Position numbers and translations under genes: made by a program
Notes under the pieces: model-generated
Seen by the model: only the letters and a program-made list of their open reading frames with translations
Databases searched by the model: none
What the model was told of the DNA's origin: nothing
IMG/VR virus record: IMGVR_UViG_3300044641_005617
Coordinates: 1 to 31,890 of that record
Source: a virus
Strand: one strand, 5' to 3'
Length of the DNA: 31,890 bases
Part shown: positions 4,190 to 31,700 of the stretch, in pieces
How positions within the stretch are numbered: the first letter of the stretch is position 1
How the letters are laid out: every line of letters starts with the position of its first letter

Positions 4190-4900
4190 ATGGAATATAC
4201 CCCAGAAGACCTTAATAAAGTAAGAATAAAAACTCGTGATGGGAAGGGAATACATGAACTTCCCATCACAGTTGATATTTTAGAAGTGGTTCCGGAACTT
4301 AAAGCCCTAGACCAATTCGATACCGTATTCTTTGCCTGGGGCCATACCGATGATGGACGCATTATAGCCAGAAATAAAATTATTAGGTTCATTAATTTCA
4401 TGTACTCAAGAGAGTTAACCTGCATTAAAGAGCAACACAAGTCATACAGAGCCCAAAAAGTAGAATGTGCCTTGTTAGCAGGGTTTGAATATGACCCCGT
4501 TACTGGTAAATTCACCGAAGAGGTAGAAAGGATGCTTATGTGTTTAAATCCTATAGCAAATAGGATGATAATAGCCTTTTGTAGGCATAACTATTATGAC
4601 GATGAAGTTACTTTAGTAGCTATGAGAGAGGTTTTTTATAGAAGCATGGCTGACCTTTTAGATAATAGAGATGCAAAGCCAGATGATATTACAGAATGGA
4701 AAAAAACGTCTAAAAGCATAACAGACCTTAAAGTGGAAATTCTTAACGGTGACGAAAACAGAATCCTTTCAGCAGCATTAGTTAAAAAGATTGAAGAAGA
4801 AAGCCTTGGCTTCCGACCAGAAGACGTTGCATATAGAATTAAAAGAGGTGAAGACCCCTTAGACGGGTATGATTTTTACAGAGATGACGTCCTCGGTTAA
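4190..4900 (+). CDS. Hypothetical phage protein
   Basis: This 236-residue protein starts 1 base after the annealing-protein stop. It is soluble, charged and mostly helical, with a central helical segment around 105-155 that includes a C-R-H-N-Y-Y-D-D-E-V stretch. No catalytic signature is evident. The following gene overlaps its end. Co-expression with the recombination genes is likely from spacing. I do not recognise the family. Confidence 0.5.
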   Translation: MEYTPEDLNKVRIKTRDGKGIHELPITVDILEVVPELKALDQFDTVFFAWGHTDDGRIIARNKIIRFINFMYSRELTCIKEQHKSYRAQKVECALLAGFEYDPVTGKFTEEVERMLMCLNPIANRMIIAFCRHNYYDDEVTLVAMREVFYRSMADLLDNRDAKPDDITEWKKTSKSITDLKVEILNGDENRILSAALVKKIEEESLGFRPEDVAYRIKRGEDPLDGYDFYRDDVLG

Positions 4901-7198: not shown

Positions 7199-7485
7199 TC
7201 TATACCTACAACATAGATTCTGCCAAAGGCGACGAAACTATTGTTGCAGGGAGAACAGGTAAGATAATTACGTTGACCTCAATCAATATCAACAAACCTA
7301 CAGGAGCTTATTTTGTTTCTCTTATTTTAGTACGTGGATCAGTAGAAAGCACTTTGTGGATTTATAATTTAGATGAGGGAGACATAATATTAGATACCAC
7401 TGATTATAAAATAGATCAATCTTCATCAATTAATATATCAAGTACCCCAGGAATTTCATTAACCGTAATTGGAGTAATAGAATGA
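7195..7485 (+). CDS. Small beta-rich virion-like protein
   Basis: This 96-residue protein starts in an ATGA overlap with the spanin candidate and ends in another ATGA overlap with the collagen-like fibre gene. Its sequence alternates short hydrophobic strands with S/T/G turns, as in small virion beta-sandwich proteins. The tight coupling to the fibre suggests a base or cap partner for it. No family is recognised. Confidence 0.45.
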
Positions 7486-9206
7486 TAATAATAAGAGATA
7501 AAGACGGCAATGAGAAGGTTAAGATAACTGGTGGCTTTACAGGGTACACTGGTTACACTGGATCAGAAGGCCCTACGGGTTATACTGGGGCAACTGGTTA
7601 TACTGGACCTGGTAATTTTACAGGTTACACAGGATATACTGGATATACAGGGGATACCGGATTTACGGGATACACAGGTTATACTGGCCCTGGAAATTTC
7701 ACGGGCTATACAGGTCCTACAGGTTACACTGGAGATACGGGAGCAACGGGTTACACTGGTCCTGGTAATTTTACGGGTTACACTGGTCCTACAGGATACA
7801 CAGGGCCACAAGGTAATATTGGAGCAACTGGTTATACGGGTTTTACAGGTTTCACTGGCTATACAGGACCAGGAGCATTTACGGGTTACACAGGCCCCAC
7901 GGGTTACACTGGTTATACGGGTCCGCTTGGTCCAACAGGTCCTACAGGATACACAGGGCCACAAGGTAATATAGGATCAACTGGTTATACGGGATATACT
8001 GGTTTTACTGGCTATACAGGACCAGGAGCATTTACGGGTTATACAGGACCCACGGGTTACACTGGACCTCAGGGTGCAACAGGTTATACTGGTTACACTG
8101 GTCCTGCTGGACAAGATGGACAATCATCTTCATTCTACGATTACAAAACAGACACAAATACAACTTCTGGTAATCCTGGAACTGGTTTGCTTGCGTGGAA
8201 CAATGCTACACAGACTTCTGCAACACAATTACAAATCAACCACATTGACCAAGATGGTTATGACATTGACTTGTTCCTTGGTATTATTAAAGTTGGCGAC
8301 ACTGTTTATATCCAAGATGCCGCAAACTCTACAAACTATCAAAAATTTACGGTTTCTGGAACAATTACTGACCATGGTAACTCTTGGGTTGATGTTCCTG
8401 TAACTTTATCAGCATCCGCTGGTACTGGATCAAGCGGTTTTGCTGATGACTTAAATGTTCTTCTTGTTATTGCCAATGTTGGTCCAACTGGTCCAACTGG
8501 TCCTTTAGGAGCAACTGGTCCGACAGGTCCAACAGGTCCAACTGGCTACACTGGACCGCAAGGTATTCAAGGTGTTGGTGGTATCGTAGCAAACTGGGGT
8601 TCTTTTTGGTCAACCGTAGACCAAACTGCAGCAAATACAACTACTGCTTATGCAATAACTTATAATAATACTGACCCAGATAGCACTAATGTTAGCGTTG
8701 TTTCAAATAGCCGCATAACAGTTGTTGATGCTGGTACTTATAATATTCAATTTTCTGCTCAAGCAGATAGAGTTTCTGGTAGCGGTACTGACACCATTGA
8801 TATTTGGTTTCGAAAGAATGGAACAGATGTTCCAGAAAGCAATACTGTAGTAACTGTTTCTGGCGGTGCAGCAGCAGCAAAAACAGTTGCAGCTTGGAAT
8901 TATATGGTTGAACTTAACGCAAATGATTATGTTGAATTGATGTGGAGAACATCAGACACTAATCTTCAACTAATTCACGAACCAGCGGCGACAAGTCCTA
9001 CTCGTCCAGCAATACCCAGTGTTATTGCCACGGTTCATCAACTTGCATATAGCGGTCCTACTGGTGCAACAGGGTACACTGGATATACGGGATATACAGG
9101 ACCTACAGGATCGGGTTCTACTGGTTATACCGGATACACCGGATATACAGGAGCAACTCCACCTACAGATTGGACTTATTTAGTAATATTAGGAGGATAC
9201 GTTTAA
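7482..9206 (+). CDS. Collagen-like fibre protein with C1q/TNF-like domain
   Basis: This 574-residue protein begins with a short non-repetitive head. A long Gly-X-Y tract of about 190 residues follows, dominated by GYT, GPT, GFT and GAT triplets. After it come a globular beta segment (about 215-330), a short G-P-T tract, a beta-sandwich resembling C1q/TNF heads (about 365-530, including W-x-x-x-W-S-T-V-D-Q and [20 protein letters not shown]) and a final GYT tract. Such proteins trimerise and form thin virion fibres that bind host surfaces or mucus. Threonine in GXT triplets is a known O-glycosylation site in Bacillus BclA-type collagens, which may matter given the glycosyltransferase downstream. 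Confidence 0.8.
7533..8121 (+). repeat. DNA repeat tract encoding the main collagen-like Gly-X-Y region
   Basis: The tract consists of 9-base units coding Gly-X-Thr with third-position variation (for example GGTTACACT, GGATATACT, GGCTATACA). Longer period units recur, such as [20 protein letters not shown] and G-P-Q-G-N-I-G. It is prone to length change by slippage or recombination. It codes for protein and is not a CRISPR array. Confidence 0.9.
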
Positions 9207-10637: not shown

Positions 10638-11573
10638 ATGTATATTGAACCAGGAGATAACAGTAATAATAGAACTAGAAATAGAGTAAGTATGTTTACT
10701 ACTATGGGAGGTGCTGTAGGTACTTCATGGCAAACATGGCAACCTAATCCAGATGAAACTATGGCTTACATTATATGTGTAGGAGGAGGAGGTTCTGGTG
10801 CAGGTGGATTTACAGGTTCAGCAGGTGCTATTAGAGGTGGTGGAGGTGGTGGAGGTGCAGCAGGACAGACTAGATGTATAATCCCTTTAATGTTTTTACC
10901 TAAGATTCTTTATATTTCACCCGGAGCAGGAGGAGCATCAGTAGCCGCTTCTTCAAATGGTACTGCTGGTACTTTATCTTATGTATCAGTTGCACCTAAT
11001 ACTACAGCAGCTAATATTGTTGTTCAATCTGGAGCCGCAAGAGCTTCTAACACAGTAGCAACAGCAGGATCAGGAACAACAGCAGGAGCAGGTGGTAGTG
11101 CTGAAACTATTAGCACTGTATCATTATGTGTAGTGGGACAGTGGGGATTATTACAGTTTTTAGCAGGTAAAGCAGGAGCAGCCGCAGGAGCCGTTACGGG
11201 AGCCGCAGGAGGATCTAATACTCTATTTACAGCAGGTTGTTCTAATGGTGGAGCAGGTGGAGGTAGTACTCCAGCAGCTAATACTAACTTTGCAGGAGGT
11301 GCTCAAACAGGTGCAGGTATATGGCCTACTATGCCAGGTGGTACAGCAGGAGGTAATCCAGGATCAGGGGCTACGGGTTATAATAATATGTTTGAAATGA
11401 TTTTGCCTTATGGAGGTACAGGTGGTGGGACTGGAGGTACAGCACTTACTGTAGCAGGAAATGGTGGTGATGGAGGCTTTCCTGGTGGTGGAGGTGGTGG
11501 CGGTGGTGGTGGTGTTACCGGAGGGAGAGGTGGTAAAGGTGGTAATGGTTGCGTATGGATAATCTCATGGTAA
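10638..11573 (+). CDS. Glycine-rich adhesin-like protein, copy 2
   Basis: This 311-residue paralogue follows copy 1 by 15 bases. It keeps the same order of blocks: W-x-T-W-Q-P-N-P-D-E-T-M-A-Y, R-x-I-I-P-L-M-F-L-P-K-I-L-Y-I-S, V-G-Q-W-G-L-L-Q-F-L-A-G-K, F-E-M-I-L-P-Y-G-G and the terminal I-I-S-W. Segments between blocks differ strongly, for example residues about 100-150 and 215-240. Two diverged copies could broaden host range or form a hetero-oligomeric tip. The stop overlaps the likely start of the glycosyltransferase gene. Confidence 0.6.
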   Translation: MYIEPGDNSNNRTRNRVSMFTTMGGAVGTSWQTWQPNPDETMAYIICVGGGGSGAGGFTGSAGAIRGGGGGGGAAGQTRCIIPLMFLPKILYISPGAGGASVAASSNGTAGTLSYVSVAPNTTAANIVVQSGAARASNTVATAGSGTTAGAGGSAETISTVSLCVVGQWGLLQFLAGKAGAAAGAVTGAAGGSNTLFTAGCSNGGAGGGSTPAANTNFAGGAQTGAGIWPTMPGGTAGGNPGSGATGYNNMFEMILPYGGTGGGTGGTALTVAGNGGDGGFPGGGGGGGGGGVTGGRGGKGGNGCVWIISW

Positions 11574-13267
11574 AATTTGATGTAGTCCTCATAGCTAGAA
11601 ACGAAGATAAAACACTTCCTCGTTTATTAGAATCACTTAATGAGTTTAAATCATTAGGTGGTAAAGTATATATATTAGATACAGGTTCAAAAGATAATAC
11701 AGTCCAAGTGGCTAAACAATGGGGATGCCACGTAGAAGAAGTAGGTGATAAGTTTAGAATCACAATTAATAAAGAACTTGCCGACCAAATAAATGCGTTC
11801 ACCACAACACAAATAGTAAAAGACGGTGATAGTGTATTTGATTACGCATCTGCCCGTAACTACATAGCTAACTTCGCTACCCATGACATGATAGTCACTC
11901 CTGATTGTGATGAAATATGGACAAAATTTGACATAGATAAGATAAATCAAGCCGTAGAACAATCCGATCAATTAGAATATAACTTCGTATTTGCTCACGA
12001 CGAGAACGGCAAAGAACTCGTAAAATTCCTACACTCTAAATTCTACAACAGAAATAAAATGAAATGGGTAGGCATTATCCATGAAGTATTACAAGGAGAA
12101 GGTAAACGATTATTCCTAGATGAGAGTATAATTAAACTCGAACACTGGCAAAATCCAGAAACAAATAGAAGCGGATACCTACCTGGACTTGCTATTGATT
12201 GTTATACAAACCAAGATAATGACAGAAACGCACACTACTTCGGTAGAGAGTTAATGTATCATGGATATTTTGAAGCAGCTATAAAACAGTTAGAACGACA
12301 TATAGCTATGGATAAGTGGCCTACGGAAAGATCACAAAGCATGATATTTATAGGGGACTGTTTGCAATACATGAATAAATTTGATGCGTCATGGTATTTA
12401 AAAGCGTTTGACCTAGAACCAAACCGCAGGGAACCTTTAATGAAACTTGCTGAGTACTACTACCAACAGGGCAAAAAGGATCAAACCAGAGCATACGGAG
12501 AAGCCGCACTAACCATCCAAGGCAATAATTTCTACGCAAATTACCAACCTTATTATGAAGATCGGCCACATGAACTATTGTATTGGGCATGGGATGGCAT
12601 AGATAAAACAAAATCGGATTATCATTGGGATCAAGCATATAAGTTTAACCCACATAACGCTAAAACATTATCCGGAGCCTCATATAGATTTAGGCTACCA
12701 AAAGTTAGTATTATAATACCACAGCTAGGTAGAGAAGAAGGATTAAAAAGATGCCTAGACTCTATAAAAAACCTTGACTACCCAAACGCTTTAATAGAAA
12801 CCATCGTTGTTGAGGGAGAAGAAACAGTGCCTATCAAGGTTCAAAAAGGACTAGAAAAGTCTACCGGAGAATATATATGTTATGCTGCCAACGACGTAGA
12901 ATTTACACCAGATAGCCTTAAAATAGCCATCCAAGACTCTATTAAACTAAACAAAGGACTTGTTTCATTTACAAGTGGATCACTATTGCCGGACAATGGC
13001 AATATTTGTGAGCACTTTATAATTAAGCGAGAACTTATTAATAAGCTAGAAGCTAGACAAATATTCTCTACCGACTTTAACCACGTAGGAGTAGATAATT
13101 GGCTATGGGCACAGGCTACTAAGTTAGACACGTCATATAGATCAGCAGCGTTTATACACCACTACCACTTCTCAACCGGATCAGATATGGACAATGTTTA
13201 TAAAAGGGGATGGGAGAAAGTAATGAGAGATAGAGAAATTTTGCAAAATAAATTAAGTAAATTATAA
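11567..13267 (+). CDS. Two-domain GT-A (family 2) glycosyltransferase
   Basis: This protein of about 566 residues starts at ATG 11567, overlapping the previous stop by 7 bases; an earlier in-frame TTG and ATG exist, but residue M-V-K-F-D-V-V-L is the usual GT2 opening. Domain 1 (about 1-200) has L-I-A-R-N-E-D, L-D-T-G-S-K-D-N-T and the metal-binding-like D-C-D-E near 113-116. The middle (about 220-330) is helical with TPR-like spacing. Domain 2 (from about 377) has V-S-I-I-I-P, then A-A-N-D-V-E-F near 440-446. It likely transfers sugars from nucleotide donors in the cytoplasm. Acceptor candidates are the collagen-like fibre or the adhesins made by the same operon; this is inference. Confidence 0.75.
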   Translation: MVKFDVVLIARNEDKTLPRLLESLNEFKSLGGKVYILDTGSKDNTVQVAKQWGCHVEEVGDKFRITINKELADQINAFTTTQIVKDGDSVFDYASARNYIANFATHDMIVTPDCDEIWTKFDIDKINQAVEQSDQLEYNFVFAHDENGKELVKFLHSKFYNRNKMKWVGIIHEVLQGEGKRLFLDESIIKLEHWQNPETNRSGYLPGLAIDCYTNQDNDRNAHYFGRELMYHGYFEAAIKQLERHIAMDKWPTERSQSMIFIGDCLQYMNKFDASWYLKAFDLEPNRREPLMKLAEYYYQQGKKDQTRAYGEAALTIQGNNFYANYQPYYEDRPHELLYWAWDGIDKTKSDYHWDQAYKFNPHNAKTLSGASYRFRLPKVSIIIPQLGREEGLKRCLDSIKNLDYPNALIETIVVEGEETVPIKVQKGLEKSTGEYICYAANDVEFTPDSLKIAIQDSIKLNKGLVSFTSGSLLPDNGNICEHFIIKRELINKLEARQIFSTDFNHVGVDNWLWAQATKLDTSYRSAAFIHHYHFSTGSDMDNVYKRGWEKVMRDREILQNKLSKL

Positions 13268-21022: not shown

Positions 21023-21472
21023 ATGATAGAAAAGATTTACGAAGAATTTAATAAATTCAAAACCCCGCTTACCATTGATAGGGATGGTGAAGGCCGTTTA
21101 ATTATTATCGAAAACGGACAACCACTAATCCTGCTTATGGAATTCCTACAGGAAACTACGTCGGACAAATCCGAATTCGGTGAGTTTATGAATATGTATA
21201 ACTCTATCTTCACCAAGAACGGGAAGCCAGGAACTAAGAAAGGTGATAGTAAGTCTAAGCGTCAATTCTCAGCAAGAAGGAAAGAAGGCTTTACCATGGA
21301 CGATTTTCAAAAAGCACTATTAGCCTTACATCAAGATAAGTGGCATATACAAGGAGGGGAAACCAGCACTCCTTATTATTACGCTACACCAGAATACATA
21401 ACTAGGGCCGACAAGTTGAATAAGTTTAAGGACCTATCCCCAGAAACGCCAAAGATTAAAATGGTTTACTAA
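21023..21472 (+). CDS. Replisome-organiser-like protein (phage C-terminal domain)
   Basis: This 149-residue protein has a basic linker (K-K-G-D-S-K-S-K-R-Q) and a C-terminal part F-T-M-D-D-F-Q-K-A-L ... W-H-I-Q-G-G ... T-P-Y-Y-Y-A-T-P-E-Y-I-T-R-A-D-K-L-N-K-F. This resembles the 'W-x-Y-L-R-P-E-T-L-F-x-x-K-F' tail domain of phage replisome organisers. Its stop overlaps the primase-helicase start (TAATG), so it may load the helicase or assist replication start. The N-terminal domain is unassigned. Confidence 0.5.
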   Translation: MIEKIYEEFNKFKTPLTIDRDGEGRLIIIENGQPLILLMEFLQETTSDKSEFGEFMNMYNSIFTKNGKPGTKKGDSKSKRQFSARRKEGFTMDDFQKALLALHQDKWHIQGGETSTPYYYATPEYITRADKLNKFKDLSPETPKIKMVY

Positions 21473-23235
21473 TGATTGTAATTAACCTAGAAGATAAACA
21501 AGAGTATGATATCGAAGTCCAAAGAGACGGAGAGAACCATATGACTTGTCCGGTTTGTTCCCACACAAGGAAGAAGCAGAAAGAGAAATGCTTCTCGTTT
21601 AATTACAACAAGAAGGTAGGCAGGTGCAATCACTGTAACGTAGTGCTCGTTGAAAAGAAAGAATTTAAACCAGAGCCTAAATTTAAAAAGCCAGAGTGGA
21701 ACCCGAAACTTGAAATATTATCAGGGGCCGCAGTAAACTGGTTCAGGGATCGCAAAATATCCGCAAGCACATTAATCCACTTCCGAATTACTGAGGGTAA
21801 GACTTATATGCCACAGGTCCAAAAGGAGAGAAATACCATTCAGTTTAATTACTTCAAAAACGGGGAGCTCATCAACGTCAAATACAGGGACGGCCAGAAA
21901 AACTTTAAAATGGTATCCGAGGCAGAACTTTGCCTTTATAACATCGACGCAGTTATTAACTCCAAACAGGTTATTATTTGCGAAGGAGAAATGGATGCTC
22001 TTTCTTTTCACGAAGCAGGATACAGAAACGTAGTATCAGTACCTAATGGGGCTACTATTGGACGCAATAATCTGTCATACCTCGATAATTGTATTGACCT
22101 TTTTGAAAACGATACGGAGTTTATCCTAGCTACAGATAATGACGTCGCTGGAAATAACCTAAGAGACGAACTCGTAAGAAGACTCGGTGCCGAGAACTGT
22201 TATAAGGTTTCATTCAGGGATTGCAAAGATGCAAACGAATGCCTAGTTAAATACGGACCATCGGCCATCAAGGAAACAATCGACAATAAGAAGCCGTTTC
22301 CAGTATCAGGAATATTCACCGCCCTTGATATATCAGAAGAGATCGACGACTACTTCCATAACGGACTTCCTGTAGGTTGTGAGATAGGCATAGCTGATTT
22401 TGACAAACTACTAAAGTTCCACCCAGGTTATATAACAGTCATCACTGGAATACCTGGTCATGGAAAATCTGAGTTTACGGACTTTATGATGTCGCTACTA
22501 AACATTAAGCACGATTGGCAGTTTGGAGTCTACTCTCCAGAGAATTACCCACTACAACTTCACTTCAGTAAGTTTGCCGAGAAGCTAATAGGGAAGTCCT
22601 TCAGCCGCATGAACGAGTTGGAGTTAAGATTAGCCAAGAACTACTTTAACGAAAACTTCTTTTTTATTAAACCAGAGGAGGACAGCAAACTAGACAACAT
22701 CCTTGAGAAGGCTAAATACCTTGTTAAAAAGAAAGGAATACGAGGACTTGTTATCGACGCTTGGAACAAGATTGAACATAATTGGGTGGGATCAGAAACG
22801 CAGTACATCAGCAAGGAACTTGATAAACTTGCCATGTTTTGCGAAAGATACGGAGTGCATTTATTCCTAGTGGCTCACCCAACAAAGATACAGAAAGATA
22901 AGAACACAGGATTATACGAGGTGCCAAATCTTTATAACATTAACGGATCTGCCAACTTCTTTAATAAAACCCATAACGGTATCAGTGTTTACCGGAATTT
23001 TACTACGAAACGTACAGAAATCTACGTCCAAAAAGTAAAATTCAAACACTGGGGAGAACCTGGACAAGTAGAACTTGAATGGGATTGGACCAACGGCAGG
23101 TATTACCGCTACACACCAGACTCCTCTAATTGGATAACCAACCAAACGCAGCAATCAGAATTACATATACCACAAAAATTAACACCTTTAAACCAATTAA
23201 TAGTCCCAACAGGGGACGAAGATATCCCGTTCTAA
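21472..23235 (+). CDS. Bifunctional primase-helicase (T7 gp4-like)
   Basis: This 587-residue replication protein has a zinc-binding primase N-terminus (C-P-V-C at 26-29 and C-N-H-C at 52-55), a toprim domain with I-C-E-G-E-M-D-A at about 169-176 and T-D-N-D near 221-224, then a RecA/DnaB-type helicase. The Walker A is G-I-P-G-H-G-K-S at about 326-333 and the Walker B G-L-V-I-D-A near 425-430. These are followed by V-A-H-P-T-K and G-S-A-N-F-F-N-K-T. It unwinds DNA and primes lagging-strand synthesis. It is co-translated with the upstream organiser-like gene. Confidence 0.9.
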   Translation: MIVINLEDKQEYDIEVQRDGENHMTCPVCSHTRKKQKEKCFSFNYNKKVGRCNHCNVVLVEKKEFKPEPKFKKPEWNPKLEILSGAAVNWFRDRKISASTLIHFRITEGKTYMPQVQKERNTIQFNYFKNGELINVKYRDGQKNFKMVSEAELCLYNIDAVINSKQVIICEGEMDALSFHEAGYRNVVSVPNGATIGRNNLSYLDNCIDLFENDTEFILATDNDVAGNNLRDELVRRLGAENCYKVSFRDCKDANECLVKYGPSAIKETIDNKKPFPVSGIFTALDISEEIDDYFHNGLPVGCEIGIADFDKLLKFHPGYITVITGIPGHGKSEFTDFMMSLLNIKHDWQFGVYSPENYPLQLHFSKFAEKLIGKSFSRMNELELRLAKNYFNENFFFIKPEEDSKLDNILEKAKYLVKKKGIRGLVIDAWNKIEHNWVGSETQYISKELDKLAMFCERYGVHLFLVAHPTKIQKDKNTGLYEVPNLYNINGSANFFNKTHNGISVYRNFTTKRTEIYVQKVKFKHWGEPGQVELEWDWTNGRYYRYTPDSSNWITNQTQQSELHIPQKLTPLNQLIVPTGDEDIPF

Positions 23236-23238
23236 ATT

Positions 23239-23514
23239 ATGGCAAAACAAAACTTAGCAAAAAAAGTAGTCCTTATGTACGAAGGTAAACCGGTTAAAGC
23301 CCTCATAATTGAGCCCAACCATCAGTACTACAGAATCCACGTACCAACTCATAAAGTGGAACAAATAGAACTCCAATACGATATGACGGCTGTAAACTTT
23401 GATACAGAATATCACTACCTTCAGGCACTATCATCAGAAAAAGCCCTTGAAAAATTTATTAAATTTCAGAAAAATGAAGCCAATAAGCAATCACGTACTA
23501 ATAAAGTTAACTAA
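23239..23514 (+). CDS. Hypothetical small basic protein
   Basis: This 91-residue protein begins 3 bases after the primase-helicase stop (M-A-K-Q-N-L-A-K-K-V-V-L). Its middle is beta-like, and the C-terminus is a charged helix. Its last 41 bases overlap the GroES-like gene in another frame. No family is recognised. Confidence 0.45.
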   Translation: MAKQNLAKKVVLMYEGKPVKALIIEPNHQYYRIHVPTHKVEQIELQYDMTAVNFDTEYHYLQALSSEKALEKFIKFQKNEANKQSRTNKVN

Positions 23515-24214
23515 GAAAACCGACGAGCTCCAACTTCCAGGAGTAGGAACACTTGCCCTTGAGACTATCTTCAATGAGGAGCAGCATCAAAGACTCGTGG
23601 GTGAGGTTATTACGGTCCCAGAGAAATTGACGTTTATTAAAATGGATCACGGTAATATGCCATGGGAAACAGAGATGGAGCTTTTAGTAGGGGACGAAGT
23701 TATCTTGAGAAGAACCGATGTTTCAGTTTCTCGGTTTGAGGGAAAGTCTTTCGAATCAGAAGGCCATTTGTACGTGCACGTTCCTTATCACGCTGTTATT
23801 CTTTCGAAGAGAAGGCTTAAATATAGTAACTTTCCTCATGGTGATATATTAGAACTTGACGGAGAAAACTACGTTGTTACAATGCTAAACGGCTACATGC
23901 TAGTTCAACAGAACGACATAGACTTCCAAACAGAATTCTACATCCCAGGAAACATAAAGAACCCAAAAGCCGAAACCGGAATAATTGCGTTTATAGGAAA
24001 ACCAAACACAGCCTATCACCCTCAATTTATTTCAGCAGGATTTGAATACGGATCACAACTCCCCGACACCCGCTTTGATTTAAAGGTAGGAGATAGAGTA
24101 GCCTTCATTAAACACGCATCCGTAGACTTAGAATACGATATACACAGAACCTTTAACGGACAAGGAAATCACTACGTTAGAATGCAGAGAAATAAGATAT
24201 TGGCAAAACTGTAA
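23474..24214 (+). CDS. Tandem two-domain GroES-like co-chaperonin
   Basis: I start this gene at ATG 23474 (246 residues); an upstream in-frame codon at 23399 would overlap the previous gene by over 100 bases and adds a sequence unlike GroES. Domain 1 begins M-K-P-I-S-N-H-V-L-I-K-L, has a loop at about 20-36, G-E-V at 43-45 and V-G-D-E-V-I-L-R at 72-79. Domain 2 repeats the plan: G-Y-M-L-V-Q-Q at 140-146, a loop at about 150-165, T-G-I-I-A-F-I-G at 168-175, V-G-D-R-V-A-F-I-K-H near 205-214 and R-N-K-I-L-A at 239-244, the GroES D-I-L-A end. It likely works with host GroEL to fold a capsid or other phage protein, as T4 gp31 does. It lies directly before the terminase. Confidence 0.65.
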   Translation: MKPISNHVLIKLTKKTDELQLPGVGTLALETIFNEEQHQRLVGEVITVPEKLTFIKMDHGNMPWETEMELLVGDEVILRRTDVSVSRFEGKSFESEGHLYVHVPYHAVILSKRRLKYSNFPHGDILELDGENYVVTMLNGYMLVQQNDIDFQTEFYIPGNIKNPKAETGIIAFIGKPNTAYHPQFISAGFEYGSQLPDTRFDLKVGDRVAFIKHASVDLEYDIHRTFNGQGNHYVRMQRNKILAKL

Positions 24215-24233: not shown

Positions 24234-26672
24234 ATGCAGTATAAGTACGAGAAACCAGATACACACTTTTTCATTAACGTAGACGAGGATCTTACCCCAA
24301 TACGCATTGACATAAATAAAACTATAAAGCAGATTTATAAGTTTTGGCATCCGAACGCGAAAGACTGCCCAATATTAAAACCACCTCCAGAGAAGATTGC
24401 CAACTACGGACTAGACCCCAAAGATCAATATTTCGAAAGACGAGAAATACCAGCAAAACTTAAAAAGCTCCAGAAAGAAAAAGATGGAAGAGCAGATGAA
24501 ATCTGGAGAGTACTTACCGCCCACAAAGAAAACTGGGCAGAGGAAATAGAGTTTATCAAAAGAGAATGGTTCCATTGCCTATACGGATACTGGGTATATA
24601 TCAAAGGAAAACCTACCTGGATATCACCATGGCACTACCAATACCTTAACTATTCTACAGGTAGCTATACAGTCACCGACCGGAAGACAGGAAAGAAAGT
24701 TCAAAGTATGTTTGGTGAGTACAGGGATAAGGACAGACGCAAGGATATTGCGTACACCTACCTATACACCACAACAGAAACATTCGCCAACATAAACAAG
24801 GAAGGAAACGCTATCCCAGAAGAAGACGGTAGCTACGAAATGATTGACACAGGACGTCTACTTTTTTTCGGAGTCATTAACCCTAAAACACGACGAGAAG
24901 GGGAAACAGGTAAAAGCCTTTCAAAACTTCACTTCACCTCAATAGTAGTGGCCGGGCCACAAGCATATTCTTCAATGTGCGCAAACCACGAGTCAACAGT
25001 AAAAGGACACTGGAACTCTAAATTTGTACCCATGTGGAGACGTATGGCTTTTTTCTTTAAGCCGATTAATGACGTTACAACAAGACCAAAAACAGAAATT
25101 ACATATAAGTCTCCAGCAGCTAAACAAAACTCTAAAAACTTTAACTCAAACGTATCAGTAGAGTCCACAGAGCTTGACTCCACGGTAGACTTCTCACCAG
25201 TAGTAAGCAGACACTACTATGACCACAATAAAATCACAGGAATAATATTACTTGATGAGGAAGCAAAGACAGACCTTATTGACGTTTACGATGAATGGAA
25301 CCTTGTTAAACCAGCAATGGCACAGGGAGCAGAATCGGAAAGGAACAGATACGCATTCTCCTTGCATCCCTCTACAGTAGAAGATATGGAAGGAGGAGCC
25401 GGAGCAAACTTTAAAAGGATGTGCGACGCATCTAACTTCTACCAACGAGGCTTAAAATCTGGACAGACAAAATCCGGACTAGCATTAATCTACATGCCAT
25501 CATGGGACGGACTTGAAAACTTCATTGGACCATATGGAGAGTCTATTATCGACGACCCAACCCCCGAACAACAGGCATTCACGAAATGGGACATCGGGGC
25601 CAAAGAATATATTAACAGTAAAATTGCCGAGTACGAGGCAAACCCCATAATCGAAAACCTTAGAAAACTTGCTCAGTTCAAAAGACAGAACCCACCATGT
25701 TACGCAGATATCTGGAGATCCATTGCCGGAGAGATAGGATTTAACATTAAAAAGATTGACTTAAGAACCGATCAGTTAAGAAGGATGTTGTCATTGGAAC
25801 AAGACCCACGGGAGCAAGGAGACTTCGTTTGGATCATCGACGGATACCCACCACTCACCGCAGAGAAGTTTTGGAACCTAAGATTACAGGACTACTTCCT
25901 GCCAAAGGCACACGTTGAATGGAAACCGTCCACTTCAGGTAGGTTTTTCCTAAGTAAAAAGTTAGCAGAAGGTTCACACAATCGCGTCCAATATAATAGA
26001 GACCTAGAAACATGGGAGGTAATAGATGACGTCTACCACGCATCTGCCGACCCAGTTACTTACCAAACAAAAAACCAAGCCAAACAAAGAGAGGATAAAG
26101 CAGCAGCCTCCTTCGCATCAGGAGCCGTCCTTTATCCAGCCCAAAACGATGACCTTGAAAAACCCGTAAGCGAATGGCAGAGCCACAAAATAGTTTGCAC
26201 CTACAAAAACAAACCACAGCTTGACGATATCTATATGGAAGAGATGCTTATGATGTGCCGGTACTTTGGTTGCAAAATGTTTCCCGAAACAAACATTAAC
26301 TCAGTAGTTAAGCACTTTGAGAACAGAGGCTACGGAGGCTTATTAAGATACGCATGGTTAGCAGATAAGGGAAAGTACAGAGATACACCAGGCTTCCACA
26401 CAGGAGGACAGCAATCAAAGGATGAACTTATATCCGAAGTGCGCGACTACATCGAATACTACGCATTAAACGAAAACCATATTGAGGTTCTTGACGAATG
26501 TAGAAAGATGAAGTCCAAAGAGGATATGACTAAACTCGACTTATTTGTTTCCGTTGCAGGTGCATTATTGTCTTATAAGTACCGCCCAATGGTTCTTTCA
26601 GAAAAAAGAATGAGCAAGGAAGACGAAGATGAAGAGTTTAATCCTGAAGACTTTTGGGGTAAACAAAGATAA
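24234..26672 (+). CDS. terL: Terminase large subunit (ATPase-nuclease)
   Basis: This 812-residue protein is the motor that packages and cuts phage DNA. A divergent Walker A is proposed at about 219-228 (T-R-R-E-G-E-T-G-K-S) and a Walker B at about 336-343 (G-I-I-L-L-D-E-E). The C-terminal nuclease part shows A-S-A-D-P-V near 603-608 and K-L-D-L-F-V-S-V-A near 767-775, both aspartates expected in the RNase H-like site. It is longer than many terminases, with an N-terminal extension of about 150 residues. It lies upstream of portal and capsid genes as usual. No separate small terminase was recognised. Confidence 0.75.
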   Translation: MQYKYEKPDTHFFINVDEDLTPIRIDINKTIKQIYKFWHPNAKDCPILKPPPEKIANYGLDPKDQYFERREIPAKLKKLQKEKDGRADEIWRVLTAHKENWAEEIEFIKREWFHCLYGYWVYIKGKPTWISPWHYQYLNYSTGSYTVTDRKTGKKVQSMFGEYRDKDRRKDIAYTYLYTTTETFANINKEGNAIPEEDGSYEMIDTGRLLFFGVINPKTRREGETGKSLSKLHFTSIVVAGPQAYSSMCANHESTVKGHWNSKFVPMWRRMAFFFKPINDVTTRPKTEITYKSPAAKQNSKNFNSNVSVESTELDSTVDFSPVVSRHYYDHNKITGIILLDEEAKTDLIDVYDEWNLVKPAMAQGAESERNRYAFSLHPSTVEDMEGGAGANFKRMCDASNFYQRGLKSGQTKSGLALIYMPSWDGLENFIGPYGESIIDDPTPEQQAFTKWDIGAKEYINSKIAEYEANPIIENLRKLAQFKRQNPPCYADIWRSIAGEIGFNIKKIDLRTDQLRRMLSLEQDPREQGDFVWIIDGYPPLTAEKFWNLRLQDYFLPKAHVEWKPSTSGRFFLSKKLAEGSHNRVQYNRDLETWEVIDDVYHASADPVTYQTKNQAKQREDKAAASFASGAVLYPAQNDDLEKPVSEWQSHKIVCTYKNKPQLDDIYMEEMLMMCRYFGCKMFPETNINSVVKHFENRGYGGLLRYAWLADKGKYRDTPGFHTGGQQSKDELISEVRDYIEYYALNENHIEVLDECRKMKSKEDMTKLDLFVSVAGALLSYKYRPMVLSEKRMSKEDEDEEFNPEDFWGKQR

Positions 26673-26703: not shown

Positions 26704-29088
26704 ATGGCAACTAAATCAAAACTTTTTGCAGGGGACAAATACGAAAATAAAGGCTCTAACCTATTTCCTTCCGACGATATATCTCCAATGTCCAAAAGAA
26801 AAGGAGACTCTGCAAAACAATTTGCGCTGCAGTTTGCCAAAGCTTTCTACTCTGGATGGGGAACCGGCATATTTGCCTACTCAAGGTTCTCAGAAAGAGA
26901 TCAGCTTATTCAACTAAGAAACTATTCAAGAGGCCGACAAGCAGAGGAAATCTACCAAGAGTTTATATACGGACGCAACGACCAGAACGAGATTATTAAG
27001 AAGGGATACATGAACGTTAACTGGGATATCCTGAAAATTGCGTTGCAATACAAAGATGGGTTCATCAGTAAACTTAACGAATGGGACTACGATCCGGTTA
27101 TTTCCTCTCAAGACCAATACGCAAGGGACGAGAGAAAAGAACGTATGATGGTAGACTACGTTAAGAACAAAATGAAAGGCATCTTCCAGGCAAACCCAGG
27201 CATGGACGAAAACACCATGGCCCCAGACTCTATAGCGGAATTCGAAATCCTTGAGCAAATGGGAGTCTATAAGAACAAAGCAGAATACGCTTGGGAGAAA
27301 TATATAAACAACGTATTTAATGGCTTTAACCGTTGGGACCTTAAATTAAAGAACAAACTCCTTGACGATATCTTTACCCTTGGAAGACTTTGCGTTCGCG
27401 ACTATGTGGATCCAGAAACTCAAACCGTAAAGACACAATACATTGACCCCCTTAACCTTATCATAAGACTCACCACAGACGGAGAGGTAATCGACGGAGG
27501 TTTCATTGACCTTATGACCGTTCAAGATCTGAAGAAAGCATCAGGACTCCCAGAAGAAGAATTATTTGCTATTGCCCAAAACGCTTGCGGGTGGTATGGT
27601 AATCCGGATAAATCGCGTTGGAACTACGGAACATCCTACGAAGCCTACCTACAGCAAAACGCAGTTTCCAGAGGGAGTCTTGGCAATTGCGAGTGGTACG
27701 CATTTAGAGTACCCGTTCTTAAATGTGAATACAGATCAGTAGACACAGAATACTACACCGAACAACAAACCCAAAATGGAACAAAATATTCAAGAGGGAA
27801 ATATGGTAAAACCTTTACCAAATCCCCAACTAGAAAAACAATTAAAAAAGACACAATCAATTATTATACCTGCTCATGGATCGTTGGAACGGACTATTGT
27901 TATGACTACGGTTTACAATACGACATGCCAAGAACCGAGAGAGCAGAAGCAAGATGCTCATTCCACTACTACCAAATGGACGATCCATCCATAGTAGAAA
28001 GATGCAAACCAGTATTCGATAACGTACAATTAGCATGGTTAAATTTCCAAAATGGTATTGCCAAGTCAAGGCCAGACGGAAACCTATATGATCTTTCAGC
28101 CCTCGTAAACGCAAACGTAGGGGATAAGATTAAACCATACGATATAATTAAAGGTATAAACGAAACAGGTTCCGGATTCTGGAACTCAATGAATAAGAGG
28201 AAAGACCGACCTGTACAAGCACCAAACTCAGGACCACCCGTAATCCCAATGAAAGGCGGTTACCAAGGAGCATTAGAAGACTTCGTTGGAGCATGGAACT
28301 CAATGAGTATGATGCTATCGAGTTTGTCAGGAATGAACCCTAGCTTCATAGGATCAAGCACCGGACTACCAGAAGGAGCAAGAGTAAATGAAGGCCAAAT
28401 GGCAGCAAGTGTATCATTGCTTAAACCAAAGATAGACGCATATTTCTTCGTTAAATCAAGTTGTGCACTAAACATCCTATTAAGAGGACAAGTAATATTT
28501 AGACATAACGACAAGATCAGTGAAGAATATAAAAACATCCTTGGCCCAGATATCGTACAAATTTTAAAGACAGCCAGCGAAAAGAACTATTCTCAGTACG
28601 GATTAAAGATGACGTTGAGAATAAGCGGAGCCCTAAAAGAAGATGTAAAAGGAGCCGCAGTAGCAGCATTACAAGCAGGAAGAAATGGACAACCTGGACT
28701 TACATTCATGGAGTACTTCAAAATTCTTGACATGCTAGAAAGCAACGTCGAGATAAAATATATCCAAGGTTTCATGCAAAGGCTAATCGACAAGAGAGAA
28801 GGCCAAATGCAAAAAATGCAACAGGAAAACGCAGACAATCAGAATAAAGGACTTATGCAACTTGAGCAACAAAAGGCAGCAGGTCAAATGGAATTACTGA
28901 AGTTTACTACGGATCTTGAAATACAAAAAGGAGTTATACTAGAAGCCGCAAAAGCCTATTACGCAATAGAACAAATGAAAGAGCAAGGCAACCAAGACAT
29001 CACCGGAAGTTCACTTGATTTGATTATGCAAACGGCAATGCAACAGTATGCTTCGACAATGGCTCCTCAAACACAAGGACAAGCATAA
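26704..29088 (+). CDS. Portal protein
   Basis: This 794-residue protein forms the dodecameric DNA gate of the head. Its size, a helical N-terminal domain with repeated charged segments, a core with Y-I-D-P-L-N-L and R-L-T-T-D-G-E-V-I-D-G-G-F, and a C-terminal Q/E/K-rich coiled part (about 700-760) fit the large portals of Bacteroidota phages. Position between the large terminase and a scaffold-like gene supports the call. The family assignment is by context and general sequence features, since portals share few motifs. Confidence 0.75.
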   Translation: MATKSKLFAGDKYENKGSNLFPSDDISPMSKRKGDSAKQFALQFAKAFYSGWGTGIFAYSRFSERDQLIQLRNYSRGRQAEEIYQEFIYGRNDQNEIIKKGYMNVNWDILKIALQYKDGFISKLNEWDYDPVISSQDQYARDERKERMMVDYVKNKMKGIFQANPGMDENTMAPDSIAEFEILEQMGVYKNKAEYAWEKYINNVFNGFNRWDLKLKNKLLDDIFTLGRLCVRDYVDPETQTVKTQYIDPLNLIIRLTTDGEVIDGGFIDLMTVQDLKKASGLPEEELFAIAQNACGWYGNPDKSRWNYGTSYEAYLQQNAVSRGSLGNCEWYAFRVPVLKCEYRSVDTEYYTEQQTQNGTKYSRGKYGKTFTKSPTRKTIKKDTINYYTCSWIVGTDYCYDYGLQYDMPRTERAEARCSFHYYQMDDPSIVERCKPVFDNVQLAWLNFQNGIAKSRPDGNLYDLSALVNANVGDKIKPYDIIKGINETGSGFWNSMNKRKDRPVQAPNSGPPVIPMKGGYQGALEDFVGAWNSMSMMLSSLSGMNPSFIGSSTGLPEGARVNEGQMAASVSLLKPKIDAYFFVKSSCALNILLRGQVIFRHNDKISEEYKNILGPDIVQILKTASEKNYSQYGLKMTLRISGALKEDVKGAAVAALQAGRNGQPGLTFMEYFKILDMLESNVEIKYIQGFMQRLIDKREGQMQKMQQENADNQNKGLMQLEQQKAAGQMELLKFTTDLEIQKGVILEAAKAYYAIEQMKEQGNQDITGSSLDLIMQTAMQQYASTMAPQTQGQA

Positions 29089-29136: not shown

Positions 29137-30207
29137 ATGGCAGAAGAATTAACAGAAGAAGAAGTTATTGCGAAATTTAACGCAGGTGAAAAATTTGAGG
29201 AAGTTATCAACAAAGATGATCCATCAAAAACAACCCCAGCTACTCCAACCGACACATCCGTAGAACCAGAAAAAACATACTGGGAACAGAAGGGTTTTGC
29301 CTCTCAAGAAGAACTTGATACCTATATTGAATCAAGGAGACACGGAGTAGAACCGGAGTATAAAAGCCAATATGCAAAAGAGCTTGATACCTTCGCAAAG
29401 GTTACCGGAAAAGACGATCCAGAAACCTTCCAGTTCTATAAGAATACCGAGGTAAAAGACACCATGGAACCGATGGATTATATTGATCTATTGGTAAAAG
29501 ATCACGTTCTTAAAAACCCTGAGTTTAAAGGGGATGAAGATATTATCAAGGATCGTTTTATTAAACAATATCTAGTAGATATGGACCCTACAGACGAGGC
29601 CCTTACCAAGGAAGATTTGTTTGACAAGAAAATGAAAACCATCGAGCTTAAAAAATCAGCAGAAACGGTTGTCAACGAGATCAAAGAAATTAAAACCAAG
29701 ATTGCAAATAATGGTGTCACCCCAGAAGAAATAGCTGAAAGACAATCTAAGATTGAACAGTCTAAAACTAAATGGAACGACGAACTTAATAAAGCAGCAG
29801 AGAACTTTAAGGTCGATATTTTTGACGAGGCAAAAAATAAAGAAGGCAAATTCGAATTTCTTAAAACAGATAAGGATGAGCCAGTTGTCTTAAAAAGTTT
29901 TACCTTTGGTGACGAGGAAAAAGAATTCTACAAAAGTTCCCTAGGTGGAGTAATTAACCAAATGGGGTATCCTGAACCAGATAGTGAGAACGCGAAAATG
30001 GCTCAGAAAATTGCAGAAATGGCAACGTTCTATGAATTTAGAGGAAGGCTGATTAAAGAAGTGATAGCACAGACAAAATCATCCCTAATCAAAGAAGATA
30101 AGATCGAGGCCGATAACCCCTCAAAATTGAAAATTGCAGCTAGCACTGATAATCCAGAAGGCATATTGTCGGAGGAAGAAGCGGTGAAAAGAGCAATGAA
30201 CGGATAG
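29137..30207 (+). CDS. Scaffold-like acidic coiled protein
   Basis: This 356-residue protein is strongly acidic at its N-terminus (M-A-E-E-L-T-E-E-E-V) and lysine/glutamate-rich with helical coiled segments, including one at about 175-230 (K-K-S-A-E-T-V-V-N-E-I-K-E-I). Low aromatic content, many charges and position between portal and major capsid genes match head scaffold proteins. A maturation-protease role is not supported, since no catalytic motif is seen. Confidence 0.6.
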   Translation: MAEELTEEEVIAKFNAGEKFEEVINKDDPSKTTPATPTDTSVEPEKTYWEQKGFASQEELDTYIESRRHGVEPEYKSQYAKELDTFAKVTGKDDPETFQFYKNTEVKDTMEPMDYIDLLVKDHVLKNPEFKGDEDIIKDRFIKQYLVDMDPTDEALTKEDLFDKKMKTIELKKSAETVVNEIKEIKTKIANNGVTPEEIAERQSKIEQSKTKWNDELNKAAENFKVDIFDEAKNKEGKFEFLKTDKDEPVVLKSFTFGDEEKEFYKSSLGGVINQMGYPEPDSENAKMAQKIAEMATFYEFRGRLIKEVIAQTKSSLIKEDKIEADNPSKLKIAASTDNPEGILSEEEAVKRAMNG

Positions 30208-30266: not shown

Positions 30267-31700
30267 GTGAGCAATAATACAGCATCGAGTCTATATACAA
30301 GTTTAATTACTTCGATAGACCCACTTTTGGAAAAATTTGCCATCGGCCGTGAAATATTTGCCGCCTATGGAGATCAGCACTATAACGCAGCAATGCTTAT
30401 CAAGTCGTTGACAAACAGTCAATCGGTTCCAGTGAACCAAGAGACTTATTACCATTTTGAAGATCTTCCAATTAACCAAAACCTTTTAACAGCAGCAGGT
30501 GGTCCATACGTGGCAGCTTCTCCTGGTGCTTCGGTTGTAGTTAACTTGGCATTATCTAACAACTCTACTTTAAACGGACTTTTACCGGTACGTGAAAAGT
30601 GGACAATCGTTGACCCAAACAACAACCAAAGATTGTATCGTATCGAAACTGTAACAAACAGTGGAGTTACCCCTTCTATTACAATTGCACCGCTTGATCC
30701 TACAATCACAATCTCTATCTCTGGTGGAGTGTTATTGAAAATTGGACCTTCGGCTTTTGGTGAAGGAACCGGACAACCAGGTGGAATTGTTACTCCTGTA
30801 TTACGTAGAAACTTTAACCTTTCTATCTTAAAAGAAGGTTTAAATTTCTCTGGTTCAGAAGCTACCAACGAAGCTAGTGTTGACGCAGTATCGTTAGCAG
30901 GTATGTACACCGCAGCTAATATCGAACTTCCTGCAGGTTTAGGTAATACCTACGTAGTAAGAAATGCAAAACAAATGGAGTTCCGTATGATGGAACAACA
31001 TGCCGATCTTTACTATTGGGGTGAGAAGAATACCAACACTTCTGTTGTTGTTGACTCTGGTAGCGACGGTACAGTAAGAGCATCTGAAGGGTTAAAGAGA
31101 ACTACTACTTTATACGGAACTCCAATTCCTTATTCAGTTGGTTCAATGACCATGGGTATCTTCAGCCAGGCTGGTGATGCTTTAGATGCTCAATACGTTT
31201 CTCCTTCCAGAGCAATCCTTTGGTTACAAGGTAGAAAGCAGTACACTGAGGCTGAGTCATTATTGGCTACCAACAACTACTATACCGGTATCCGTTACGA
31301 TAGAGATTCTTCTCTACCATATGTATATGGAGACGCTATGGCTGTTCAAGGTAAGAAATACAACTTCGCATTTATCGGAGTAGAACTTGGTGGATACAAA
31401 TATGTATCTATGAGAGAGCCTTTATTTACCGACCCTAACGGTACAGGTGCATTAGGTTACCCAGTTCCAAACTTAGGATTCATGTTGCCTTTGGCCTCTA
31501 TGACTGATCCTGTTAATAAAGTATCGAGAGATACCGTTACAATGAGATATAAGTCATTGGGTGGTATTAACCGTGCTTACAAAACATGGGTGAGAGGTCA
31601 AGAAATCACTAACGTGGATACTTACGATATCAACATGCAAGCCAACGTTTCTTACGAGTGGTTCGGAGCTAACAGATTTATCCAAGTTCAAGGTACCTAG
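30267..31700 (+). CDS. Major capsid protein (GTG start)
   Basis: This 477-residue protein follows the scaffold-like gene and ends before a terminator. It has the composition of an HK97-fold capsid: an extended N-terminal part, Y-H-F-E-D-L-P near 67-73, a G-L-P-V-R-E-K-W strand, and a long beta-rich C-terminal half with R-A-I-L-W-L-Q-G-R-K and Y-K-T-W-V-R-G-Q-E near the end. The frame has no ATG near its start; GTG 30267 gives M-S-N-N-T-A-S-S. The HK97 fold is inferred from position and size. Confidence 0.75.
   Translation: MSNNTASSLYTSLITSIDPLLEKFAIGREIFAAYGDQHYNAAMLIKSLTNSQSVPVNQETYYHFEDLPINQNLLTAAGGPYVAASPGASVVVNLALSNNSTLNGLLPVREKWTIVDPNNNQRLYRIETVTNSGVTPSITIAPLDPTITISISGGVLLKIGPSAFGEGTGQPGGIVTPVLRRNFNLSILKEGLNFSGSEATNEASVDAVSLAGMYTAANIELPAGLGNTYVVRNAKQMEFRMMEQHADLYYWGEKNTNTSVVVDSGSDGTVRASEGLKRTTTLYGTPIPYSVGSMTMGIFSQAGDALDAQYVSPSRAILWLQGRKQYTEAESLLATNNYYTGIRYDRDSSLPYVYGDAMAVQGKKYNFAFIGVELGGYKYVSMREPLFTDPNGTGALGYPVPNLGFMLPLASMTDPVNKVSRDTVTMRYKSLGGINRAYKTWVRGQEITNVDTYDINMQANVSYEWFGANRFIQVQGT

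Follow-up and report, generated by a model that had tools for sequence, protein, structure and literature searches.

A phage gene just ahead of the terminase encodes two GroES-type domains in one chain

The window analysed here, a stretch of 31,890 nucleotides (IMG/VR virus record IMGVR_UViG_3300044641_005617, positions 1-31,890), contains on its plus strand a gene (23474..24214) that encodes two GroES-type domains joined in one chain. The open reading frame, of 246 amino acids, was found where an earlier note on this DNA had placed it. The V-G-D-x-V strand that the note had seen in both units was also present (V72-G73-D74 and V205-G206-D207), and the C-terminus reads ...KILAKL. Relatives of the gene keep a conserved place ahead of the terminase, and a single-domain GroES and usually a GroEL are encoded in the same genomes.

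The whole protein matched Pfam Cpn10 (PF00166) over two stretches with an E-value of 1.4e-6 and a score of 28.6 bits, the curated whole-protein cut-off of this family being 21.1 bits. Cpn10 was also the sole Pfam match of each half searched alone, with scores that were both under the cut-off (16.8 bits for domain 1, residues 1-114, 23474..23815, and 17.6 bits for residues 115-246). A profile of GroES, made from single-domain proteins of phages and of solved structures, gave 11.0 bits with the N-terminal half and 11.6 bits with the C-terminal half, scores that were equalled by none of 300 shuffles of either half. With HHalign, the N-terminal half (P=7.9e-6, profile columns 1-87) and the C-terminal half (P=1.3e-4, profile columns 1-86) both aligned with GroES over nearly its full length, and reversed-profile controls gave no match (P=0.18 and 0.59). 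Domain 2 (residues ~135-246, 23876..24211) is separated from domain 1 by a linker (residues ~115-134, 23816..23875) which, in the alignment, is longer than that of the relatives. Judged by these profile matches, the C-terminal half is the weakest-supported part of the protein.

The AF2 model of the protein was of modest confidence (pLDDT 67, pTM 0.70). Its ten top PDB matches were all GroES, Cpn10 or T4 gp31, ranks 1-9 having a probability of 0.99-1.00 and T4 gp31 (1g31) one of 0.90, with E-values that were marginal (2.5e-3 at best). A direct PDB sequence search with the window protein returned no GroES. The weak scores of each half alone would fit a resemblance to GroES due to chance or to another beta-barrel fold, but this is extremely improbable, as the curated Pfam cut-off was exceeded by the whole protein, shuffled sequences and reversed profiles were negative, and the fold match is independent of these searches. 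The observation of the earlier note is thus confirmed.

The neighbouring genes, all on the same strand, bear out the other half of the original description, which had the protein lying beside the head genes. Upstream are a primase/helicase (21472..23235; phrog_239, 2e-98) and an ORF of 91 amino acids (23239..23514) without family match, which runs 41 bases into the tandem gene. This ORF showed no homology to the small upstream gene of the relatives, so that its membership in that gene family found no support. The large terminase subunit (24234..26672; phrog_6681, 1.7e-40, and tblastn matches to Elemovirus and Cellulophaga phage terminases) starts after a gap of 19 bases. It is followed by a putative portal protein (26704..29088), which had no PHROG match and is assigned on its size and on its position, the one that the portal gene occupies in the annotation of elemo, Panino and phi38:1, by an acidic 356-aa protein placed in the head region by its position (29137..30207), and by a virion structural protein, probably the major capsid protein (30267..31700; phrog_13704, 3.1e-9). 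Elsewhere in the window we noted a collagen-like protein of 574 amino acids that carries long GYTGYTG/GPTG repeats and is probably a tail fibre (7482-9206), a 572-aa protein among tail-type genes that reads like two glycosyltransferase-2 segments flanking a repeat region (11549-13267), and a 236-aa protein (4190-4900) homologous (E=8e-7) to a 272-aa gene located right before the terminase in locus L022.

Because a tblastn search of 50,697 phage records with the window protein gave no match, relatives were reached through the terminase, which shows a distant relationship to the terminases of Flavobacterium phages elemo, Cellulophaga phages phi13:2, phi18:3, phi19:3 and phi46:3, and Maribacter phage Panino. 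A gene of 180-200 amino acids annotated as co-chaperonin GroES or cpn10 was found at the same place in all four terminase relatives examined, and also in phi38:1 and Calle_3, which were reached via the Panino protein. These proteins have two domains. All six two-domain proteins tested, including those of elemo, Panino and phi38:1, matched phrog_13932 ("co-chaperonin GroES"), and Elemovirus, Pachyviridae, Pervagoviridae and Maribacter phage Panino all have the gene shortly before that of the large terminase. An alignment-based scan detected relatives in at least 586 IMG/VR stretches; the same kind of scan, run with the window branch on genome contigs, found nothing. A near-identical gene (99-100%) is present in three other IMG/VR contigs, one of which (G001) is 69 kb long, and L022 represents a second branch that is nearer to the window protein (24% identity by BLAST, E=2e-9).

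The window protein shares with the phrog_13932 family (phi19:3 gp101, phi38:1 gp089, elemo gp30, Panino CDS0088) its two cpn10-type domains and its place before the terminase. It differs in its length of 246 amino acids, against about 180-200, in being only ~20-25% identical and in having kept a longer domain-2 loop. Its direct match to phrog_13932 was weak (E=0.068). When the domains were compared by profile, the N-terminal domain of the window protein paired with the N-terminal domain of the family (P=9.7e-5) and the C-terminal with the C-terminal (P=3.9e-5), and the cross pairs gave a weak match or none (P=0.0018 and 0.94). Because of this pairing, the tandem form is probably ancestral, going back to one ancestral tandem gene.

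The predicted structure of one relative, L029, had a pLDDT of 87.5. Its best PDB match was Chlamydomonas Cpn20 (7ekq chain R; E=1.1e-5, TM 0.54), over 216 columns that cover both domains, followed by GroES chains over one domain. The likeness to plant Cpn20 that had been pointed out earlier is thus borne out in a member of the family. In BFVD, the four best matches covered both domains and included the cpn10 of Cellulophaga phage phi18:3; among the matches listed, nearly all others were single-domain viral GroES. Chloroplast Cpn20/Cpn21/Cpn23 (7ekq chains Q and R) similarly consist of two cpn10 domains head to tail, and they share their compartment with Cpn60 and a single-domain Cpn10. In contrast with the phage family, they are cellular and plastid-targeted, and no close sequence relation was found. 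The match is one of fold, and a separate fusion appears more likely than common descent with plastid Cpn20. T4 gp31 and RB49 CocO are also phage-encoded GroES folds, linked to capsid folding, but they are single-domain proteins that form a homo-heptamer and replace host GroES on host GroEL. Bacterial and phage GroES (Cpn10, PF00166) share the domain fold with the window protein, but have one domain, a conserved GGI(V/L)L loop and a gene that is usually beside GroEL.

The link to the terminase was assessed in 80 loci of the IMG/VR stretches that had been picked by the tandem protein alone. A terminase homolog was found downstream on the same strand in all 80, usually 200-300 bases on. In genome contigs, mostly Bacteroidetes MAGs, this was the case in 26 of 30 loci, three of the other four being contig ends. 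A tandem gene 31% identical to that of Panino was also observed, together with a terminase, in CP070801.1 (L132), a Candidatus Aenigmatarchaeota chromosome (1.05-Mb archaeal MAG); we take it to be a provirus or a mis-assembly. A conserved, apparently all-helical gene of ~93 amino acids (...LKNAAATKKLAIFDAFEILNRIEEE...FAERRSK) is present between the tandem gene and the terminase, directly before the latter, in L035, L043, L048 and others. It is a better candidate for the small terminase than the tandem protein: position ahead of the large terminase would suit a small terminase, but we rejected this identification of the tandem protein as very improbable because many relatives have a separate small helical gene ahead of the terminase.

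A separate single-domain GroES was found in 23 of the 24 tandem-carrying records of at least 27 kb and a phage GroEL in 19 of the 24, several of these records being fragments or close relatives, so that the counts are not independent trials. The sole record without single GroES is a fragment, and both GroES forms, but no GroEL, occur in Baltivirus phi19:3 and phi13:2. Counted among the 24 is the record of 69 kb that comes from the same phage as the window; it contains GroEL (51865-53367) and a canonical single-domain GroES (53502-53762, 76 bits); these are ~34 kb from the tandem gene, which adjoins the terminase instead. The single GroES proteins of these phages have retained mobile loops of the GGLLLT type, and the phage GroEL aligns end to end with solved GroELs. 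In L022 (4187-5364), three cpn10-type genes of 79, 232 (tandem) and 87 amino acids occur in succession shortly upstream of the terminase. The tandem gene there is between two single-domain genes, and four cpn10 domains therefore stand in a row; both small genes keep clear GroEL-binding-type loops (SGIILPDT and SGIILTEES).

In the window protein, the alignment locates the mobile loops at residues ~15-41 in domain 1 (ELQLPGVGTLALETIFNEEQ..., 23516..23596; model confidence low at 31-37) and at residues ~148-168 in domain 2 (DFQTEFYIPGNIKNPKAETG, 23915..23977; mean pLDDT 50 at residues 151-160). Both contain hydrophobic residues (TLAL; FYI) but are not of the GGIVL form, and GTLAL and EFYIP are poor copies of the GroEL-binding motif. 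Among 43 family members, the hydrophobic loop pair of domain 1 is kept in nearly all (100% and 95%) and followed by strongly conserved residues unlike those of GroES. The domain-2 loop was lost in 40 of the 43 and is kept in L022, where it is clear (DGLVLD), L029 and L030. Most members have at most one loop per chain, which distinguishes them from Cpn20. All 43 also have an invariant H-H-N in domain 1, within GDxVIxHHN(V/I)F(R/K) (L029 residues 62-64), at the base of the GroES roof hairpin, without GroES counterpart. This motif is absent from the window protein, another difference from the phrog_13932 family.

The presence of single and tandem GroES in the same phages suggests a mixed-ring solution of the chloroplast type, and the constant proximity of the tandem gene to that of the terminase points to head assembly as the source of the client or as the moment at which the protein is needed. 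From these two features we infer the lid, its binding to GroEL and its client. The tandem chain, which like chloroplast Cpn20 has two consecutive GroES folds, would combine with the single GroES of the phage into a mixed lid of seven domains (2a + b = 7). This lid would sit over phage GroEL, or over host GroEL where the phage has none, and the resulting cage would be reserved for a large protein of the head or of DNA packaging that the adjoining genes encode. We consider the chances of this proposal to be about even. Chloroplast Cpn20 and Cpn10 have been reported to form functional seven-domain mixed rings (PMC5780408). The clear domain-2 loop of L022 and the hydrophobic pair kept in domain 1 also speak for it. 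Against a mixed lid speak the attachment of the tandem gene to the terminase rather than to the distant GroEL and GroES genes, the loss of the domain-2 loop in most members, the HHN motif and the strongly conserved residues after the domain-1 loop, neither of them like GroES, the poor loops of the window protein and its modest model.

The same observations would fit a different role, in which the cpn10 domains were recruited for head assembly or packaging, for example as a ring or clamp on terminase, portal or capsid, and lost the capping of GroEL. The terminase is the constant neighbour, a canonical GroES with intact loops is already present in the same genomes, and the loss of the domain-2 loop, together with the conserved domain-1 loop and HHN, could mean a new partner. 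Chloroplast Cpn11/20/23 have been reported bound to the ClpP core (7ekq, as cited in PMC8889267), and tandem cpn10 rings can therefore serve partners other than GroEL. However, domain 1 has kept its hydrophobic loop, three members have kept that of domain 2, the co-presence of GroES and GroEL would be a coincidence, and the window protein itself lacks HHN. We regard this role as rather unlikely, though to be taken seriously.

The earlier note had suggested that 3-4 tandem chains might take the place of seven GroES chains. Such a lone homo-oligomeric lid would replace host GroES as T4 gp31 does, leaving the single GroES for another purpose. Arabidopsis Cpn20 does function as a homo-oligomer, GroES concatemers of six or eight domains are functional with GroEL (PMC5780408), and the fold match to T4 gp31 points the same way. 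Yet nearly every tandem-carrying genome also has a single-domain GroES, which weakens this simple stoichiometry and makes the lone lid improbable. Assemblies of 3-4 tandem chains are no more likely than a mixed ring with seven domains.

As to novelty, public records already name the gene GroES or cpn10, PHROG has the family as phrog_13932, 'chaperonin cpn10' is listed as a core protein of Pervagoviridae (PMC8776804), and GroEL and GroES are mentioned for Panino (PMC11590407). A phage two-domain version had been called unusual; this holds among characterised proteins, where the form is rare, but not within one clade of aquatic phages, in which it is common. In the open-access literature we found no description of the phage two-domain form, its strict link to the terminase or the three-part set; this does not prove that there is none. 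Proteins with tandem cpn10 domains have been presented as peculiar to chloroplasts (PMC5780408). We tentatively propose, with more doubt than confidence, that the GroEL, single GroES and tandem GroES of a widespread Bacteroidetes-type phage clade independently reproduce the seven-fold-lid solution of chloroplast Cpn60/Cpn10/Cpn20, with a tandem subunit reserved for building the head or the packaging motor and mostly one GroEL-docking loop per two domains, which would make the lid deliberately asymmetric.

How a lid with an even number of domains can fit a chaperonin of seven-fold symmetry is a question posed by tandem cpn10 proteins. It could be tested in phages whose hosts are in culture (Flavobacterium, Cellulophaga, Maribacter), where a single small genome would supply every component. 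Such phages would also connect a chaperonin lid with one particular step of phage head assembly.
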